Part shown: piece after piece, positions 4,056 to 12,514 of the stretch | How the letters are laid out: the number at the start of each line of letters is the position of its first letter | How positions within the stretch are numbered: the first letter of the stretch is position 1 | Source: Sedimentibacter sp. zth1 | GTDB taxonomy: Bacteria; Bacillota; Clostridia; Tissierellales; Sedimentibacteraceae | NCBI RefSeq assembly: GCF_017352195.1 | Contig: NZ_CP071445.1 | Span: 558,001-622,000 of the forward strand | Length of the DNA stretch: 64,000 bases | Direction of reading: 5' to 3' | Translations under genes and position numbers: made by a program | Notes under the pieces: model-generated | Databases searched by the model: none | What the model saw: only the letters and a program-made list of their open reading frames with translations | Told to the model about the DNA's origin: nothing

Positions 4056-4742
4056 ATGAATGATAAAAAGAAAATACTAATTGTTGAAGATGAGCAAAAA
4101 ATTGCAAGATTTTTAGAGTTGGAATTAAATTATGAGGGCTATGAGGTAGTGATAGTTAATGACGGAAGACAAGGTTTTGAAAAAGGTAAAGAAAATGATA
4201 TAGATTTGATTGTGTTAGATGTAATGTTACCAAGATTGAGCGGAATCGAGGTTTGTAGACGGATCAGGCAAACATCAGAGGTTCCTATAATTATGTTAAC
4301 AGCCAAGGATGACATATCAGATAAAATAACAGGTCTTGATATTGGTGCAGATGACTATATGACTAAGCCTTTTGCGGTAGAGGAGTTGCTTGCAAGAATT
4401 AGAGTATTATTAAAGAGAAAATTTATAGATAAAAAATCTATAAATGATAATATTATTAAATGTGGTGAATTGTGTTTATATAAGGAAAACTTTAAGATTA
4501 CTTATAGCGATGAAATAATAGAATTAACAAAAAAAGAATTTGAATTATTAGAATATCTTTTAGAAAACAGGGATATTGTTTTATCAAGAGAAAAAATATT
4601 AAATCATGTATGGGGATATGATTATTTTGGAGATACTAATGTAATAGATGTTTATATTAGGTATTTAAGAAGTAAAATTGATCAAAAGTATAATATAAGG
4701 TTAATAGAAACTGTGAGGGGAATTGGTTATACAATTAGGTAA
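4056..4742 (+). CDS. Two-component response regulator, OmpR/PhoB family
   Basis: A protein of 228 residues with a receiver domain (about 5-118) and a C-terminal OmpR-type winged helix (about 132-228). The phosphorylation site is complete: acidic pair E11/D12, acceptor D55, T82 and K104. The DNA-binding domain has LTKKEFELLEYL and TVRGIGYTI. The start has a Shine-Dalgarno (AAAGGAAAG, 4039-4047) nearby. It lies 5 bases ahead of its sensor kinase, so the two form one operon. No target can be inferred, although the preceding genes concern surface-polymer acylation. Confidence 0.92.
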   Translation: MNDKKKILIVEDEQKIARFLELELNYEGYEVVIVNDGRQGFEKGKENDIDLIVLDVMLPRLSGIEVCRRIRQTSEVPIIMLTAKDDISDKITGLDIGADDYMTKPFAVEELLARIRVLLKRKFIDKKSINDNIIKCGELCLYKENFKITYSDEIIELTKKEFELLEYLLENRDIVLSREKILNHVWGYDYFGDTNVIDVYIRYLRSKIDQKYNIRLIETVRGIGYTIR

Positions 4743-4747
4743 TAATA

Positions 4748-6169
4748 ATGTTAAAAAAATTATTTTATTATATTTGGGTATTGCTTAAGTTTCCTTTTAA
4801 ATTAATTAAACAGTTTTTAATAAGAATTTTGAAAAGATTAAAATTTTCTATTACATTTAAAATTTCTGTTTCTTATTTTTTACTATACGTAGTTGTTATT
4901 TTGGTCGTAACTGTGACAACGTCCGTTGGATATTTTATATATATACTCAATGATTTTAAGGAAACAACCATTGATAATCAACTAAATATTATTATGCAAA
5001 ATATTGATAATTTAGAACGCATAAATGATTTGGGTGATGATGATAACATAAATAATATTAATATATATAATAGTAATTACAGAATGATATACTCTAAAAA
5101 TGCAAGTTTGAATAATGTGAAATATACCAATAATATTATTTTAGTAGTAGAAGAAATTCTTAAAAATAAAACTTATGTTCATTCTGCTGAGTTTGAGATA
5201 AATGAAAAATATTATTATGTTAATATATATTATGATGTAAATTTTTTGATTTCTCAAACATTATATATAATTATATTGGTTTTTATTTCTGGTATATTAG
5301 GTCTTCTAATATTTATACCAATAGTTTCTAGGACAAGTGGTAAATTAATTAAGCCAATAAAAAAGATGACTCAAATAACTAAAACTATATCAGTTAATAA
5401 TATAAATACAAGGCTTGACATAAGAGACAGCCAAGATGAATTAAAAGAATTATCCAGTACGTTCAATGAAATGATGGATAGAATTGAAGAAGGATATAAA
5501 ACACAGCAACTATTTGTTTCTGATGCTTCACATGAGTTGCGTACACCTATAGCAGTTATAAAAGGGTATGTAAATATGCTTGATAGGTGGGGTAAAAATG
5601 ACAAGGACGTTTTGGATGAATCTATACAAGCAATAAAGAATGAAACTGAAAATATGCAGGATTTAATTGAAAAGCTTTTGTTTATTGCTAGAAATGATAA
5701 ACATACCTTGACATTCAATAAAGAGGATTTCAAAATTTCTGAAATTCTATATGAAATTAAAAAAGAAAGTTCTATGATTGATACCAAGCATCTATATGAG
5801 TTTAATTTTGCAAATGATGCAAATGTTTATGCTGATAAAAATAGAATTAAACAGGCAATTAGGATATTTATCGAAAATGCAATAAAATTTACTCCTGAGG
5901 GTGGGAAAATAGCTTTGTATGGTTATTTAGATGACGAATATTATGGTATAAAAATAGCAGATAGTGGAATTGGAATAGCAAAAAAAGACTTATCAAGAAT
6001 ATTTGATAGATTATATAGAGCTGAAGAATCACGAAATAGACAAATCGGTGGTCATGGATTAGGTTTGTCTATAGCTAAAATAATTATTATTGGACATAAA
6101 GGTAAAATAAAAGTTAAAAGCACAATTGGTAAAGGTTCTGAATTTACAATATTAATACCTCATATATAA
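4748..6169 (+). CDS. Membrane sensor histidine kinase
   Basis: A protein of 473 residues: a basic cytoplasmic N-terminus, membrane segment 1 at about 40-66, an extracellular sensor region of about 100 residues, membrane segment 2 at about 168-195, HAMP (about 196-250), a HisKA domain with ASHELRTP and phospho-acceptor His262, and an HATPase_c domain with the N box (ENAIKF), DSGIGI and GHGLGLS. The layout resembles ArlS-type kinases. It phosphorylates the adjacent OmpR-type regulator. The ligand is unknown; the extracellular loop is Asn-rich and has no recognisable domain. Confidence 0.9.
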   Translation: MLKKLFYYIWVLLKFPFKLIKQFLIRILKRLKFSITFKISVSYFLLYVVVILVVTVTTSVGYFIYILNDFKETTIDNQLNIIMQNIDNLERINDLGDDDNINNINIYNSNYRMIYSKNASLNNVKYTNNIILVVEEILKNKTYVHSAEFEINEKYYYVNIYYDVNFLISQTLYIIILVFISGILGLLIFIPIVSRTSGKLIKPIKKMTQITKTISVNNINTRLDIRDSQDELKELSSTFNEMMDRIEEGYKTQQLFVSDASHELRTPIAVIKGYVNMLDRWGKNDKDVLDESIQAIKNETENMQDLIEKLLFIARNDKHTLTFNKEDFKISEILYEIKKESSMIDTKHLYEFNFANDANVYADKNRIKQAIRIFIENAIKFTPEGGKIALYGYLDDEYYGIKIADSGIGIAKKDLSRIFDRLYRAEESRNRQIGGHGLGLSIAKIIIIGHKGKIKVKSTIGKGSEFTILIPHI

Positions 6170-6280
6170 AAGTACAAAATTTATTATATAAAGACAAAAC
6201 AAGACAAAATAAATTAAAGCAATTTTTTTAATGTTATATTATAATAAGTTTATTATATATGAAGGGGATGTGAACTTTAA

Positions 6281-6586
6281 GTGAATGTTGTGTACATAGA
6301 AAATGGACAAGACTTATTGATTAAGCTTAAGGGGGAATTGGATCATCATTCTGCTACAGAGTGTAAAAAGATAATCGATGAGAAATTGACATCAGGTAAA
6401 ATAAATAACTTAACTATTGATGTGAAAGGCTTAGACTTCATTGATAGCTCAGCAATAGGATTTATTATAGGCAGATACAAGGTTTTAAAAAAGAATGAGG
6501 GTAATTTAGATATTATTAATACTTCTCATAAATTAAAAAAAGTATTAGATATGAGTGGTATAGGCAAAATAATCAAAATAAAATAG
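6281..6586 (+). CDS. spoIIAA: Anti-sigma F factor antagonist SpoIIAA
   Basis: A STAS-domain protein of 101 residues. GELDHHSA near the N-terminus and LDFIDSSAIGFIIGR (Ser56/Ser57, the phosphorylation site region) match SpoIIAA. When dephosphorylated it binds SpoIIAB and frees sigma F in the forespore. The start is GTG at 6281; GAAGGGG (6261-6267) lies 13 bases upstream, which is long, but no better start exists because a TGA blocks the ATG at 6268. spoIIAB follows after 9 bases. Confidence 0.9.
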   Translation: MNVVYIENGQDLLIKLKGELDHHSATECKKIIDEKLTSGKINNLTIDVKGLDFIDSSAIGFIIGRYKVLKKNEGNLDIINTSHKLKKVLDMSGIGKIIKIK

Positions 6587-6595
6587 GGGGAAAAA

Positions 6596-7045
6596 ATGCA
6601 AGAAAATTATGTATATATTAAAATTCCAAGTTATTCAAATAATGAATCTTTTGCTAGAAGTGCAGTAGCGGCTTTTTGCTCCTGCCTAAATCCTACAATA
6701 GAAGAAATATCGGATATTAAAACAGCTGTTTCTGAAGCTGTAACCAATGCAATAATTCATGGCTATGAAAATAAAATAGGGGAAATAGCTATTGAATGCA
6801 GAATAGAAGGTAGGTTAGTTGAAATAATTATTGAAGATTTTGGATGCGGTATTTCAAATATTGAAAAAGCCAAAGAACCATTATTTACGTCAAAACCAGA
6901 GTTAGAGCGTTCTGGTATGGGATTTACAGTAATGGAGACGTTTATGGACGAATTAGTAGTATTATCTGAAAAAAGCATTGGAACAAAAGTAATTTTAAGA
7001 AAAAAAATTTCACAGAAAAATGAAAATATTAACAGAGTTAAATAA
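6596..7045 (+). CDS. spoIIAB: Anti-sigma F factor / serine kinase SpoIIAB
   Basis: A GHKL-family ATPase of 149 residues with the N box (SEAVTNAIIHGY), the DFGCGI G1 box and ERSGMGFTVME, which is characteristic of SpoIIAB rather than RsbW. It holds sigma F inactive and phosphorylates SpoIIAA. AGGGGG precedes the ATG. In most endospore formers sigF follows directly; here a terminator follows at 7046-7073 and no sigma-factor reading frame exists nearby. Confidence 0.92.
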   Translation: MQENYVYIKIPSYSNNESFARSAVAAFCSCLNPTIEEISDIKTAVSEAVTNAIIHGYENKIGEIAIECRIEGRLVEIIIEDFGCGISNIEKAKEPLFTSKPELERSGMGFTVMETFMDELVVLSEKSIGTKVILRKKISQKNENINRVK

Positions 7046-7073
7046 AAAAGGCACATAAAGTGCTTTTTTTTAT
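7044..7073 (+). terminator. Terminator splitting spoIIAB from the spoVA genes
   Basis: A stem of about 10 bp (AAAAAGGCAC pairing with GTGCTTTTTT, one G-U pair, loop ATAAA) followed by a T tract. It sits where sigF normally begins, so spoIIAA-spoIIAB and the spoVA genes are likely separate transcripts. Confidence 0.75.
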
Positions 7074-7119
7074 GCATTATTAGTTAAAAAAAGCAAATAA
7101 TAATGTTGAGGTGAAATAT

Positions 7120-7239
7120 ATGAAAAAAACATTAATTTTTCTTCTATTAGTTACAGTAATTTGTATAACTTTTTTTACAATAACTAATAATATTGATAAA
7201 TCAATAAAGAAAATGCCAGAAAATGCAGTATTATTATAG
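7120..7239 (+). CDS. Small hydrophobic protein, 39 aa, upstream of spoVAC
   Basis: An ATG at 7120 with an excellent ribosome site (GAGGTG, 7108-7113, 6 bases upstream) opens 39 codons ending at TAG 7237-7239. The product begins MKKTLIFLLLVTVICITFF, a single membrane segment or signal anchor, followed by a short polar tail (NNIDKSIKKMPENAVLL). Its stop overlaps the start of the AGGAGG site of spoVAC, so it looks translated and coupled to the spoVA operon. I do not recognise the family. It could be a spore-membrane micropeptide; that is inference from position. Confidence 0.6.
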   Translation: MKKTLIFLLLVTVICITFFTITNNIDKSIKKMPENAVLL

Positions 7240-7248
7240 GAGGTATAA

Positions 7249-7698
7249 ATGAAGCAAAACAAACAAACTTATGCAAAAGTAGTTGATGAGTTTACTCCAA
7301 AAAATAAAATAATTAAAAATTGTATTTTAGCTTTTATTTTTGGTGGAGCAATTTGTACAATTGGAGAAGTGGTAAAAAATATACTAATTAATTTAAATTT
7401 TACTTCAGAAGATGCTGGTACAATGTCATCAGTTATATTAATTGGAATGACAGCATTGTTAACAGGGTTTGGAGTTTATGATAAACTTGGAAAGTATGGC
7501 GGAGCAGGTACTATTGTACCAATAACAGGATTTGCAAATTCAGTTGTGGCACCAGCTTTGGAATTTAAACGTGAAGGCTATGTATTAGGCTCAGCTGCAA
7601 AAATATTTACTATTGCTGGTCCAGTTCTTTTGTTTGGATATAGTAGTTCAATGCTTGTAGGATTTATAAGCTATGTATTAAAATTATTTGGCTTTTAA
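7249..7698 (+). CDS. spoVAC: Stage V sporulation protein AC
   Basis: A membrane protein of 149 residues with about four membrane segments and SpoVAC/SpoVAEb signatures: FTPKNKIIKNCILAFIFGG at the start, then a Gly-rich YGGAGTIVPITGFAN loop. SpoVA proteins sit in the spore inner membrane and move dipicolinic acid in during sporulation and out during germination. SpoVAC is proposed to act as a mechanosensitive DPA channel. AGGAGG lies just upstream; spoVAD follows after 12 bases. Confidence 0.93.
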   Translation: MKQNKQTYAKVVDEFTPKNKIIKNCILAFIFGGAICTIGEVVKNILINLNFTSEDAGTMSSVILIGMTALLTGFGVYDKLGKYGGAGTIVPITGFANSVVAPALEFKREGYVLGSAAKIFTIAGPVLLFGYSSSMLVGFISYVLKLFGF

Positions 7699-7710
7699 AA
7701 GGATGATATT

Positions 7711-8721
7711 ATGAAAAAAATTGGAAAACAAACATACGTCATGGCTAATGATGTATTTATTAGAGATGCTTATACAATAGCAGGTACCAAAGAGGGCGAA
7801 GGTCCTTTAGGTGATAACATTGATTATATAATGAGTGATAGCACTTGGGGAGAAAAAACTTGGGAAAAGTGTGAAGCTAAAATGCAGCAATATTCTGTTG
7901 AAAATTTAATTTCAAAAAACAATTTGAAAAAGTCAGATATAGATTTAATGCTAGCAGGGGATTTATTAAATCAAATAGTTTCCTCGTCATTTGCAGCAAG
8001 AAGTCTAGAAATCCCATTTATAGGTCTTTATGGAGCATGTTCTACAATGGCACTTAGTATGGGAGTTGGTGCATTGTTAATAGACGGTGGCTTTGCTGAA
8101 AACGTTGTCTGTGTTACATCTAGTCATTTTTGCTGTGCCGAAAGGCAATATAGGATTCCGTTAGAATCAGGGGGTCAAAGACATATGTGTGCTCAATGGA
8201 CTGTAACTGGTTCGGGTGCAGTGTGGTTATCCAAAAATAATGATAATAAAGACTTACCAAAGATCAAAAATGTTACATTTGGTAAAATTATAGATTTAGG
8301 GGTTACGGATTCAAATAATATGGGTGCAGCTATGGCACCTGCAGCTGCAGATACAATTAGACAAAATATAATTGATACTAATGTAAATATTGATTATGAT
8401 TTAATAGTTTCTGGTGACTTAGGTACAGTAGGAAAGTCTATAGCCAATAAACTATTGCAAGATGAAGGAATAAATATAGAAAAAAAATATGATGATTGTG
8501 GAACTATTATTTATGATATAGATAAACAAGATGCTCATGCAGGTGCAAGTGGATGCGGATGCTCAGCGGTTGTCTTTGGTTCATTTCTGTATAAAAAGTT
8601 ACTTAAGAAGGAAATAAATACTTTATTGTTTACAGCTACCGGTGCACTTCATTCACCTACCGTCTCATTACAGGGTGAAAGCGTACCTGGTATTGCACAC
8701 AGTATAGGAATTTCAAATTAA
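7711..8721 (+). CDS. spoVAD: Stage V sporulation protein AD
   Basis: A soluble thiolase-fold protein of 336 residues typical of SpoVAD, with GLYGACSTMALSM, SSHFCCAERQYR, and near the end DAHAGASGCGCSA and TGALHSPTVSLQGE. It binds dipicolinic acid on the spore inner membrane and is part of the SpoVA transport complex. Length and gene order (AC-AD-AE) match the clostridial three-gene locus. Confidence 0.95.
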   Translation: MKKIGKQTYVMANDVFIRDAYTIAGTKEGEGPLGDNIDYIMSDSTWGEKTWEKCEAKMQQYSVENLISKNNLKKSDIDLMLAGDLLNQIVSSSFAARSLEIPFIGLYGACSTMALSMGVGALLIDGGFAENVVCVTSSHFCCAERQYRIPLESGGQRHMCAQWTVTGSGAVWLSKNNDNKDLPKIKNVTFGKIIDLGVTDSNNMGAAMAPAAADTIRQNIIDTNVNIDYDLIVSGDLGTVGKSIANKLLQDEGINIEKKYDDCGTIIYDIDKQDAHAGASGCGCSAVVFGSFLYKKLLKKEINTLLFTATGALHSPTVSLQGESVPGIAHSIGISN

Positions 8722-8732
8722 GAGGTAAATAT

Positions 8733-9086
8733 ATGAATTATTTAATGAGTTTTATAGTAGGGGGGTTAATATGTGTTATAGGTCAATTAATTATGGATTT
8801 AAAAAAAGCGAACCCTGCCTACATACTAGTATCATTTGTAGTATCAGGAGTAGTACTTGGATATCTAGGAATATATGATAAAATAATTGAATTTGGATAT
8901 TCAGGTGCAACTGTAACATTACCTGGCTTTGGGTACACACTCGCTAAGGGTGCTGTAGAGGAAACTGCTAAAACTGGTTTTTTAGGAGTATTAAGTGGAG
9001 GTATATCAGCTACTGCATCTGGAGTAGGTGCATCCTTAGTATTTGGATATATTGTTTCATTGATATTCACAGCAAAATCTAAATAA
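8733..9086 (+). CDS. spoVAE: Stage V sporulation protein AE
   Basis: A membrane protein of 117 residues with three to four membrane segments, related to SpoVAC by its fold and its YSGATVTLPGFGYTLAKG loop. It is the third SpoVA component needed for DPA uptake in clostridia. AGAGGT precedes the ATG, and the gene ends at a bidirectional terminator facing the convergent PBP gene. Confidence 0.93.
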   Translation: MNYLMSFIVGGLICVIGQLIMDLKKANPAYILVSFVVSGVVLGYLGIYDKIIEFGYSGATVTLPGFGYTLAKGAVEETAKTGFLGVLSGGISATASGVGASLVFGYIVSLIFTAKSK

Positions 9087-9124: not shown

Positions 9125-12100
9125 TTAATCATTAGTTATTATATCTATGTTGCTATCATCACCTGGTTCTTCTTCTTCTCCAGAATTATCATCACCATTG
9201 TTGTTTCCATTACCATTTCCATTACCGTTGTTGTCATCGTTATCGTTTCCATTATTATTATCTTGATTCTCATCATCAGGATTTTCAGGAGTCTCAACAT
9301 CTCCATCTTCGTCATCGTTTTCATCACCATCTGATTTGTCTTCGTCATCTTTTATTGAATCATACCAAGTATTATAATTATGAACATTACATGGGTATAT
9401 TGGTTCTTGATATTGAAAATCTTCTGTAAACATCGTTCTATATTCAAGTTGATCAACTGGTATACCATATATGCTTAATATTTCAATTGTTTGTTTAGTA
9501 TTGTTGTTATCATTATTATTAATATTTGTAATCTTAAGGGTTACAAGACCAGGATAAGTATCTAGTATATCTTGTTCTGTAGAACCATTTCTAATATCTT
9601 GTTTTATTTGAAGATACAATTTGTTTGCTTCCAATAATTTTTCATAAGTAGCATTTTTAACATCGGGATATAATGATGGATTATATAAAACCTCTCTTGT
9701 TATAAATACCTTATCTATAATTGATGATTCAGGACAGAACTGATTTGGTAGCAAATTTGAATCTTTACAAACTTTTCTTGAAACGTGTGTTTTACAAGTT
9801 TCTTTTGGTTCTGTTCCTTTAACAAAATACTCAGTTACAATTTGACTTCCTCTTGGATCTTGAGAGCAAAGTTCAGTAGGTATTTTGCCAGATTGCTTAC
9901 AAACTTGTACTTGAACAACTCCATCGGGAACTTCAAATTTAGCTGGTTGTTTATCTGAATGTATTGTCGTCATAATAGCTCCTAATAATCTAGCTGTCGT
10001 CGTACTGCTTTGAGATAACTTCATCGATGCATTATCATTACCTACCCAAACAGATGCTGTATAATATGGTGAAAATCCAATACACCATAAATCACCATTG
10101 TTTTGAGTAGTACCAGTTTTAGCAGCCATATCAATGCCTAATGCTTTTAATGAAGCAGCTGATGATAAACCATTTGTTACTGTTGTACGTAACATATCTT
10201 CTACAATAAATGCTACTTCTGGGGCTACTGCAACATTTGTTTTTGGAGTATTATCTATTATTATTTTTCCTTTGCTATCTATGACTTTAGTGTAACTAAT
10301 TGGTTCCGTATATACACCACCATTTGCGATAGTTCCGTAAGCTGCAGCCATTTTTAATGGCGAAAAACCTTTTGTTAATCCTCCTAATGCTAATGAAGAA
10401 GGGTTAATGTCATTGTATGCTCGATTTTCTTCTGGTGTAACAAAAGTATCATTTTCAGGATTTTCTTTATCAATTAAACCTAACTTGGATAAATAATCGA
10501 TACATGTTTCTGCTCCAAGAGTATTATACATATATACAGCGTTGGTATTGATAGATTGCTCAAGTGAGTAACGAATTGTTGTTAATCCTGAGTATTTAAA
10601 AGGTTTTGAATTATAATATTCAAACCAGTTTTTAGGCCATCTTTGACCTTTTTCATTGTACATAGGAATATCATCAATTATTGATGATGATGTATATCCA
10701 TGGTCTATAGCTGATAAATAAACACAAATTGGTTTAATTGTAGAACCTGGTTGTCTTGCTGAATCTACGGCTCTATTAAATGTATTACTACCAACGATAT
10801 TTCTACCACCAATCAATGCTTTTATTTGACCAGTTCTATGATCAAGTATTACTGTAGCTGATTGCGGCTGAACTATACCTCTTTCTTCATAAGTGTAATA
10901 ATTGTTATTTATATATATAACATTATCTGCATCTATACTAAAGAAATCAGGTGATTTGTCTAAAAACTCTTTAAATATTTTAACTGTTCCTTTAGTTCCT
11001 TTTTTATCAACAATTTCATAATTATTTCCTATATTTAATCCAGATACATTGTGTGTTACTAATTGATTTTTTTCATCAACTGTATAACAGTTCACAATGT
11101 CTAAAGTTGAAGTATAAATATTTAATTTTTTTGAAGTAATTATTAAATTTCCATCTTCATCATTAGTATATTCACTAGGAAGTAGGTATACAGTATTTGA
11201 GTCATCCATTAAATTGTTATGTTCAAAATATAATACATGACCTGTGTCATTTAATACGTTGTTATATTTGTCTAGTGTTCCTACTCCAGTATTTCCTACC
11301 CATCTAAAACCTCTCCAATCTTGTAATAATGGTTTGCTTTCAGGAGGTGTTTTTCCTAGAAGGATTTCTCCAAAGTTTTCATACGTTTTTTCAATAGTTT
11401 TTTGCATTTCTACATCCATAGTGGTGTAAATACTTAAGCCACCTTTGTATAAATAGCTTTGTGCTTCTTCATATGTTAATTTATGAACACGCATAAGGTC
11501 TGCAATAACCTGTTTTTTTACATAGTCAGTAAAATTGTTTGCAGTAATTCCTTCAATTTTCTTTTGTCCTGGTTTTAAAGTAGTTCTTATGTCCTCGTTT
11601 ATTGCTTCATCATATTCCTCTTGAGTTAATTTTCCTGAATTAAGCATTTCTTTAAGAACTATCTTTTGTCTTTTTAAACCAGTTTCATTGAATACACAAG
11701 CATATTGTATAGAGTCAATATAAACATATCCTACAATATCTTCTTCAGCTATACCCTCCAGATTATATAATGATACTCTATTGAAAGGTGCATACTTAGT
11801 TGGACTTTTTGGAATTGCTGCCAAAGATGCGCTTTCAGCAATTGTTAAATCTTCAACATTTTTAGAAAAATAAGCATATGCAGCAGCTTCCACTCCATAA
11901 GTACTTTGACCAAGTGATATTGTATTCAAATAGTTTTCAAGTATTTGACTTTTTGTAAGTTTTCTTTCCATTTGAATAGCGAGATACGCTTCTTTTATTT
12001 TCCTTTCTAAAGCTTTATCGCCAGTTAGGTATAAATTTTTAACTAGCTGTTGTGTTATTGTACTTGCACCTTGACCAGTTAAATTTCCACTCTTAAAGTT

Positions 12101-12514
12101 GCTTAATAATGCACCAAAGATACGTTTTATATCTATACCAAAGTGAGTTTCAAATCTTTTGTCCTCAATTGAAACAAAAGCATCTTGTAAATGTTTAGGC
12201 ATTTTCTCTATCTTAACTATATCACGATTTTCATTCGCATCATGTATTTGCTCAACAAGATTACCATTTTGATCTAAAATAACTGAACTTTGAGGTAATG
12301 TACCAAGTATATTTGTTGGATCAATTTTTGGAGCATCTCCAATTACTTTAATTACCATTACACCTACTACTATGGCAGTTATAATAATTGCTGCAAGTAA
12401 CATTAAAAGTAATACTCGCCATATTTTAATTTTCTTTTTTTTCTTTTTAGGTTTTTTGTTTTTGGGGTCTTTACCTTGATTGTTTTTTATATTTTTATTA
12501 TTATTTGTCGACAT
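9125..12514 (-). CDS. Class A penicillin-binding protein (PBP1A type), long form
   Basis: A bifunctional cell-wall synthase of 1129 residues. Order: Lys/Asn-rich cytoplasmic tail (1-32), one membrane anchor (about 33-56), a GT51 glycosyltransferase domain with catalytic Glu117 in SIEDKRF and GASTITQQLVKNL, a linker or OB-like insertion (about 380-540), and a transpeptidase domain with the active-site Ser591 in STIK, a SIN motif near 656 and KTG at 799-801. It polymerises lipid II and cross-links peptidoglycan outside the membrane. The last 70 or so residues are a low-complexity Asp/Asn/Gly/Glu tail, making it longer than usual. GGAGGT lies 7 bases upstream of its ATG. Confidence 0.93.
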   Translation of the reverse strand: MSTNNNKNIKNNQGKDPKNKKPKKKKKKIKIWRVLLLMLLAAIIITAIVVGVMVIKVIGDAPKIDPTNILGTLPQSSVILDQNGNLVEQIHDANENRDIVKIEKMPKHLQDAFVSIEDKRFETHFGIDIKRIFGALLSNFKSGNLTGQGASTITQQLVKNLYLTGDKALERKIKEAYLAIQMERKLTKSQILENYLNTISLGQSTYGVEAAAYAYFSKNVEDLTIAESASLAAIPKSPTKYAPFNRVSLYNLEGIAEEDIVGYVYIDSIQYACVFNETGLKRQKIVLKEMLNSGKLTQEEYDEAINEDIRTTLKPGQKKIEGITANNFTDYVKKQVIADLMRVHKLTYEEAQSYLYKGGLSIYTTMDVEMQKTIEKTYENFGEILLGKTPPESKPLLQDWRGFRWVGNTGVGTLDKYNNVLNDTGHVLYFEHNNLMDDSNTVYLLPSEYTNDEDGNLIITSKKLNIYTSTLDIVNCYTVDEKNQLVTHNVSGLNIGNNYEIVDKKGTKGTVKIFKEFLDKSPDFFSIDADNVIYINNNYYTYEERGIVQPQSATVILDHRTGQIKALIGGRNIVGSNTFNRAVDSARQPGSTIKPICVYLSAIDHGYTSSSIIDDIPMYNEKGQRWPKNWFEYYNSKPFKYSGLTTIRYSLEQSINTNAVYMYNTLGAETCIDYLSKLGLIDKENPENDTFVTPEENRAYNDINPSSLALGGLTKGFSPLKMAAAYGTIANGGVYTEPISYTKVIDSKGKIIIDNTPKTNVAVAPEVAFIVEDMLRTTVTNGLSSAASLKALGIDMAAKTGTTQNNGDLWCIGFSPYYTASVWVGNDNASMKLSQSSTTTARLLGAIMTTIHSDKQPAKFEVPDGVVQVQVCKQSGKIPTELCSQDPRGSQIVTEYFVKGTEPKETCKTHVSRKVCKDSNLLPNQFCPESSIIDKVFITREVLYNPSLYPDVKNATYEKLLEANKLYLQIKQDIRNGSTEQDILDTYPGLVTLKITNINNNDNNNTKQTIEILSIYGIPVDQLEYRTMFTEDFQYQEPIYPCNVHNYNTWYDSIKDDEDKSDGDENDDEDGDVETPENPDDENQDNNNGNDNDDNNGNGNGNGNNNGDDNSGEEEEPGDDSNIDIITND

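Follow-up and report, generated by a model that had tools for sequence, protein, structure and literature searches.

Here we describe the spoIIA-spoVA locus of Sedimentibacter sp. zth1 (order Tissierellales, family Sedimentibacteraceae), a locus at which sigF, the gene for the forespore sigma factor sigma F, is absent. Sigma F is generally regarded as the factor that switches on gene expression whenever an endospore develops. The window, by which we mean the whole stretch of DNA that was analysed, comprises 64,000 nucleotides of contig NZ_CP071445.1 (positions 558,001 to 622,000 of the forward strand), and the features of the locus within it are as follows.

6190..6209 (+): pair of GACAAAA repeats ahead of spoIIAA, likened by eye and unscored to the consensus of Spo0A boxes
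6281..6586 (+): spoIIAA, anti-anti-sigma factor, 101 residues; best family TIGR02886, 104.9 bits
6596..7045 (+): spoIIAB, anti-sigma F factor and kinase, 149 residues; TIGR01925, 196.1 bits, above the equivalog cut-off of 135
7044..7073 (+): intrinsic terminator made of the hairpin GGCAC-ATAAA-GTGC and a T8 run, lying between spoIIAB and spoVA in the place that sigF takes in relatives
7074..7105 (+): candidate promoter before the spoVA operon, GCATTA-N14-CAAATAAT, suggested by reading the intergenic regions side by side
7120..7239 (+): 39-codon gene for a small one-helix membrane protein, which opens the spoVA operon in the family
7249..7698 (+): spoVAC; TIGR02838, 174.7 bits (cut-off 164)
7711..8721 (+): spoVAD; TIGR02845, 425.9 bits (cut-off 411.8)
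8733..9086 (+): spoVAE; TIGR02839, 137.1 bits (cut-off 131.1)

An initial annotation, made from the letters of the window, had given correct coordinates, and direct reading confirms its description of an intact spoIIAA and spoIIAB, of spoVAC, spoVAD and spoVAE in order, and of a terminator and a 39-codon reading frame where sigF would stand. SpoIIAA falls short of the TIGR02886 equivalog cut-off (114.75 bits) and passes the superfamily model TIGR00377 (84 against 53.45 bits), and SpoIIAB aligns over residues 4-140 with PDB 1l0o_A. The three SpoVA proteins all exceed their NCBIfam cut-offs and lie in order, which identifies the spoVA operon. No sigma factor gene lies between spoIIAB and spoVAC in the window, so sigF does not directly follow spoIIAB as it does in a spoIIA operon, and the anti-sigma factor and its antagonist are indeed left without a sigma factor as neighbour. 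Boxes of the type TCGACA occupy a comparable place upstream of spoIIAA in loci L022-L026, again by eye and unscored.

Absence of sigF from the genome and the family

The genome of zth1 is a single contig of 3,133,930 bases and is 98.8% complete. When it is searched with the SigF model TIGR02885 (cut-off 321.45 bits), nothing scores above the cut-off; the eleven matches fall on nine genes, which are SigG, SigB-, SigA-, SigK-, FliA- and SigE-like genes and three weak partial ones. The best match, at 289.8-289.9 bits, is SigG (C1:154342-155100), which scores higher to the SigG model NF006071 (437 bits), and it is followed by a SigB-type factor linked to gyrA (C1:2244281-2245033, 189.5-189.9 bits) and then by SigA (115.7 bits). 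The initial annotation had supposed that the missing sigma factor must be encoded at another site and called for a search of the rest of the genome; that search, with SigG and the gyrA-linked factor as its best matches, does not support the supposition.

The same holds for the relatives. None of the 27 genomes of the family (Sedimentibacter and kin) exceeds the SigF cut-off, against 65 of the 249 genomes of the order, that is, 65 of the 222 outside the family, while 25 of the 27 have a clear spoIIAB and 23 have SigG. The DNA downstream of spoIIAB can be read in 23 of those 25 genomes (two loci end too early): a sigma factor gene follows in none, and the terminator and the 39-codon gene follow in 21. 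These 21 include the type strains S. acidaminivorans DSM 24004 (L022, genome G005) and S. saalensis DSM 13558 (L025, genome G021), whose spoIIAB loci are among the nearest named ones (84% and 80%), and Sedimentibacter sp. MB31-C6 (G008), whose circular chromosome, assembled from PacBio data, is apparently closed. A hairpin with a T-run of the same kind was found in 27 of 29 readable family loci, six of the 27 being second copies of a genome. In a second collection, with the analysis confined to the top 80 of 398 spoIIAB loci, a sigma factor gene stands immediately downstream of spoIIAB in 74; the six loci that lack it all belong to this family and come from the same genomes as six of the family genomes that carry G numbers here. 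Outgroup genomes thus have this gene order with sigF, and the family has it without a sigma factor gene. Since a sigma factor gene is lacking here in all 23 readable family genomes, the absence of sigF is not a local assembly error, a doubt that had been raised for positions 7046-7119. The two remaining readable loci, L120 (G006) and L117 (G018), have neither the 39-codon gene nor the shared terminator; there a hairpin comes after spoIIAB, then a gene on the opposite strand that looks leuB-like by eye, and spoVA has been relocated away from spoIIAB.

We give hardly any weight to the explanation that sigF is present after all, either too diverged to be recognised or carried on DNA missing from the assemblies. 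The cut-off does seem strict outside the order, where 107 of 392 genomes of a class-wide sample exceed it and the best score of many others falls just short; but the genome of zth1 is nearly complete in one contig, its matches are mostly assigned to other sigma factors, and none of the 27 family genomes passes, the MB31-C6 chromosome among them. Outside the order the class survey does not tell the two factors SigF and SigG apart, which confines the finding to Tissierellales. Within the order, SigG without SigF occurs outside the family just in G025 and G210, both of which also lack spoIIAB, which makes missing contigs a likelier cause there than the state of the family. We found no report of a loss of sigF in Sedimentibacter in searches of open-licence PMC text.

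The 39-codon gene and the coupling of spoVA to spoIIA

The 39-codon reading frame is a real gene under purifying selection, as judged from its codons: across 136 pairs drawn from 17 distinct 39-codon copies, the ratio of nonsynonymous to synonymous differences (pN/pS) is 0.25, with a pS of 0.65 that is close to saturation. Its product ends in residues resembling IPESAVLL; no Pfam or NCBIfam family matches it above cut-off, a pattern search did not find the C-terminal motif before spoVAC in 93 outgroup loci, and its sequence gives no hint of a sigF remnant. The promoter-like pair in front of the gene has the usual family form GTATTC-N14-(T/C)AAATAATACT, and by resemblance it would be of the sigma-G type. 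The terminator and this family-conserved pair make it plausible, as the initial annotation had proposed, that spoVA expression is uncoupled from spoIIA. Such a state may not be new, as outgroup spoVA operons may also have promoters of their own.

Compared with a complete spoIIAA-spoIIAB-sigF operon, then, the family retains SpoIIAA, SpoIIAB, SpoIIE-like proteins, repeats resembling Spo0A boxes upstream and spoVA downstream; it differs in having no sigF, in the terminator and 39-codon gene that precede spoVAC, and in the shortened SpoIIE-like proteins of one genus (g3).

Compaction of the sigE-sigG locus

The other forespore sigma factor, sigma G, is encoded after sigE. In 22 of 22 family loci sigG follows sigE and has a promoter of the forespore-sigma type, GTATA-N14/15-GGnnATAAT. 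These loci were compared with 20 outgroup loci, taken from 19 SigF-positive genomes and G025. The gap between sigE and sigG measures 54-68 nt in 21 family loci, against 75-307 nt in the 20 outgroup loci. A crude scan for a terminator-like hairpin between the two genes was negative in all 22 family loci, including the twenty-second, L146, whose arrangement is normal, and positive in 15 of 19 outgroup loci; among the positives at least L163 and L177 are distrusted, and L176 gave no result. In the family, the -35 part of the sigG promoter is formed by the end of sigE together with its TAA stop, whereas in 15 of the 20 outgroup loci a similar -10 part is preceded by TGAATA-N14. We had considered that the family promoter was lost and rejected this idea, given that the -35 part sits on the sigE stop codon.

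Most of the family loci shown also carry, downstream of the sigG promoter, another -10-like element that reads AAGGGGGATAAT or nearly so (for example in L019 near position 6300), which was not seen in the outgroup loci compared. Across 15 genomes, the motif GTATA-N13/15-GGnAATAAT had 43 matches against 55 for a reversed control, so it cannot be used to list a regulon. In one genome, G041, sigG is present twice: one copy resembles the outgroup type (464 bits), the other the family type (378 bits); its 7% contamination suggests a mixed bin.

Set against the spoIIGA-sigE-sigG locus of Bacillus and Clostridia, the family shares the gene order, the membership of its sigma factor in the SigG family and a promoter of the sigma F/G type before sigG. 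It differs in the missing sigE-sigG terminator, in the promoter laid over the sigE stop, in a strongly diverged SigG and in that Gin, the anti-sigma-G protein, was not found.

Divergence of SigG

SigG of zth1 scores 437 bits to NF006071, above its cut-off of 372, and 428 bits to TIGR02850, below its cut-off of 457. In a phylogenetic tree all 22 family SigGs join the 20 outgroup SigGs on a branch supported at 100/100, and form one clade beside them on a stem branch of 0.26; within the family, SigG identity is 0.91. Taking 10-11 family and 8 outgroup genomes, the ratio of the distance between family and outgroup SigG to the spread within the outgroup is 2.68 (95% interval 2.20-3.31). The corresponding ratio is 1.59 for SigE and 1.63 for SigB, and their column bootstrap intervals do not overlap that of SigG. 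Such divergence is the trace that a change of role would leave.

The ratio for SigB bears on a very improbable alternative, in which the gyrA-linked SigB-type factor, with partners resembling RsbV and RsbW, assumed the role of sigma F. In zth1 the SigF model ranks this factor second, after SigG, and in all 11 family genomes read a STAS gene and a HATPase-like gene (the latter allowed up to E = 1) adjoin it. However, the same kinds of gene adjoin it in all 8 outgroup genomes read, and similar SigF-model scores are the best match in many genomes of the order that lack SigF or SigG, which gives it the look of a general factor; moreover, its rate ratio equals that of SigE, and it has an anti-sigma-like gene of its own. 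The RsbW-like protein of the gyrA-linked locus (L017:9050-9421, 123 residues) reads EICTFFINSI where SpoIIAB has EAVTNAIIHG and, judged by eye, may not bind ATP.

Individual residues of SigG are less telling. At 40 columns that are diagnostic for F or G, the family SigGs have 6-8 F-like residues and 5-9 residues of neither kind, proportions similar to those of outgroup SigGs scored with one left out at a time; convergence of SigG upon SigF was accordingly dropped as an argument for a takeover. The residue matching E156 of sigma G, a position mapped through the B. subtilis sequence, is acidic (E or D) in 22 of 22 family SigGs; it is acidic in outgroup SigG and SigF as well, and is thus permissive only. 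Outgroup SigGs, too, vary at the site of the CsfB discriminator, N45 in B. subtilis, which is for that reason uninformative about the family. Two positions stand apart: at 119, lysine is found in 85 of 85 outgroup SigFs and 22 of 22 family SigGs and arginine in 20 of 20 outgroup SigGs, and at 61, asparagine is found in 22 of 22 family SigGs and glycine in all 105 outgroup SigFs and SigGs.

Other parts of the switch

Among family members the identity of SpoIIAB is 0.81. Across 93 outgroup SpoIIABs, 58 positions are at least 95% invariant, and the family protein retains 50 of them. SpoIIE-like proteins occur at E <= 1e-34 in 25 of the 27 family genomes, none of which passes the SpoIIE cut-off (TIGR02865, 490.8 bits); that of zth1 scores 321.6 bits across nearly the whole model. 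It has 765 residues, that of G001 773, and those of three outgroup genomes 780-802. In five genomes of genus g3 (L234, L235, L238, L239, L240) the protein has 510-545 residues and retains its phosphatase domain, but compared with the three outgroup genomes it lacks a central region that bears cysteines as well as those membrane helices that come later, so the switch's upstream arm, too, was remodelled or is in decay.

SpoIIR passes its cut-off in all 30 genomes searched, 14 of them from the family. In 11 of these 14, spoIIR lies 8-36 nt behind gerAC (the others at 67 nt, at 84 nt, and at 575 nt without gerAC), and in 15 measurable outgroup genomes it lies 63-462 nt from the preceding gene; by eye and unscored, a sigma-F-like promoter was read before spoIIR in 11 of 16 outgroup genomes. 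Gin (PF10764) is above cut-off in none of 10 family genomes, where two gave matches below it inside frames of 248-256 residues, and in 12 of 16 outgroup genomes, in which it precedes yaaO-tmk. In zth1, SigE, SigK and SpoIIIAA are above their cut-offs, and SpoIIGA is recognised but below its own. Its sigK is intact (L020:6618-7373, 310.7 bits to TIGR02846), and about 200 nt away a 91-residue fragment (L020:7576-7851), tyrosine recombinase-like by eye, is perhaps what remains of a skin-like element.

A probable takeover by sigma G

We infer, with a probability of about two in three, that sigma F was lost in this family and that sigma G took over its job under SpoIIAA and SpoIIAB. A sigma G that does the job of sigma F would be expected to appear together with sigma E ahead of division, to be held by SpoIIAB, to be free of Gin and to autoregulate. 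The compacted gap, the lost terminator, the kept promoter and, with the limits of its search given below, the absence of Gin are as that role predicts. The loss of sigF while spoIIAA-spoIIAB is kept, the changes between sigE and sigG and the fast divergence of SigG are observed; every interaction and the timing would follow as sketched here. Before division, Spo0A would activate spoIIA and, separately, spoIIGA-sigE; since no terminator remains between sigE and sigG, read-through would yield some sigma G in the predivisional cell, where SpoIIAB may hold it. In the forespore, as the conserved parts suggest, SpoIIE would dephosphorylate SpoIIAA, which would then draw SpoIIAB off sigma G. The early and late forespore programmes would be merged in one sigma factor, and the Gin/CsfB brake that delays sigma G elsewhere seems to be gone. 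We also lean, somewhat less firmly, to the wider claim that a spore-forming family runs its forespore on sigma G alone, freed by SpoIIE-SpoIIAA-SpoIIAB, with the two-stage forespore programme, generally taken to be universal, collapsed to one.

Precedents can be found in known systems. According to excerpts of PMC3174212 and PMC4383634, SpoIIAB of B. subtilis has both sigma F and sigma G as targets, plays the main part in keeping silent the sigma G that the mother cell makes under a sigma-E promoter, and no longer acts on sigma G that carries E156K. Excerpts of PMC3789829 and PMC4383634 describe CsfB/Gin as holding sigma G back until engulfment is complete, and sigma G as active before engulfment ends in C. 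difficile, which lacks CsfB. The family would resemble C. difficile in loose sigma G timing and in having no CsfB, a likeness drawn here from genes; unlike the family, C. difficile has a sigma F that is active in the forespore (PMC3789829, in excerpt).

Several observations weigh against the takeover by sigma G. The same sources (PMC3174212, PMC4383634) describe the effect of SpoIIAB on sigma G in stationary-phase B. subtilis cells as minor, again in the excerpts, and published text has CsfB as absent from C. difficile and other Clostridia. SigF-like residues are not clearly enriched in the family SigGs, and G004 and G009 have weak SpoIIE matches alone. S. acidaminivorans retains a promoter-like pair directly before spoIIR, and in G001 spoIIR is located elsewhere. 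The Gin model found nothing in 14 named control genomes, including B. subtilis, which has CsfB, so some true Gins escape the search; none turned up in 4 of the 16 outgroup genomes either, and the yaaO-tmk neighbourhood lies outside the stretches around spoIIR taken from three family genomes, so the absence of Gin is read from the PF10764 search alone. Four metagenome-assembled genomes, 82-88% complete (G009, G011, G016, G020), have spoIIAB and no sigE-sigG match, owing either to missing contigs or to a further loss of sporulation. That zth1 sporulates at all would itself be deduced from its genes. The changes in the family are, moreover, shared by descent, and therefore count as few events rather than dozens.

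Some of these observations would also suit an unlikely but not negligible alternative, in which sporulation is decaying in the family, sigF went early, and spoIIAA-spoIIAB and the rest are relics that have yet to erode. It would account for the four genomes without sigE-sigG matches, for SpoIIE proteins that fall below the cut-off in all 27 genomes and, in the five read from genus g3, have lost about 250 residues, and for the SpoIIAA, SpoIIGA and SpoIIE of zth1 being below their curated cut-offs; a table in PMC3533761, seen in excerpt, offers a precedent in the non-spore-former Eubacterium rectale, which lacks sigF and spoIIAA. Decay is hard to square, however, with the conservation of SpoIIAB and SigG within the family and of SpoIIAB at its invariant positions, or with purifying selection on the 39-codon spoVA gene. 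The loss is common to the whole family, a long time for relics to stay intact, and the paper on MB31-C6 (PMC13064008), which reports its circular chromosome of 3,009,901 bp, calls Sedimentibacter species spore-forming.

It is quite improbable that SpoIIAA-SpoIIAB now governs some other sigma factor, or a target that is not a sigma factor, with the forespore started by another route. The persistence of spoIIAB in the four genomes without sigE-sigG matches would fit such a change of target, as would the two-component sensor kinase that adjoins spoIIA on its upstream side in the window and in 5 of 6 named loci. But those genomes are incomplete, SpoIIE-like proteins and SpoIIR persist alongside, and the changes specific to sigG would be left unexplained.

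If sigma G did take over, the first compartment-specific sigma factor would be dispensable once its sister had been rewired. The family would then be a natural experiment on why endospore formers keep two near-identical forespore sigma factors and on how SpoIIAB chooses between them, and checklists of spore formers based on sigF could misclassify it.

Neighbouring genes

The two-component system to which the upstream sensor kinase belongs occupies window positions 4056-6169, immediately 5' of spoIIA, and its kinase is likewise placed in 5 of 6 other family loci. On the other side, a PBP1A-type protein with a long acidic tail rich in Asn, Asp and Gly is encoded at 9125-12514 on the minus strand, convergent to spoVAE, and a relative of it is similarly placed in all 6 family loci and in many outgroup loci.

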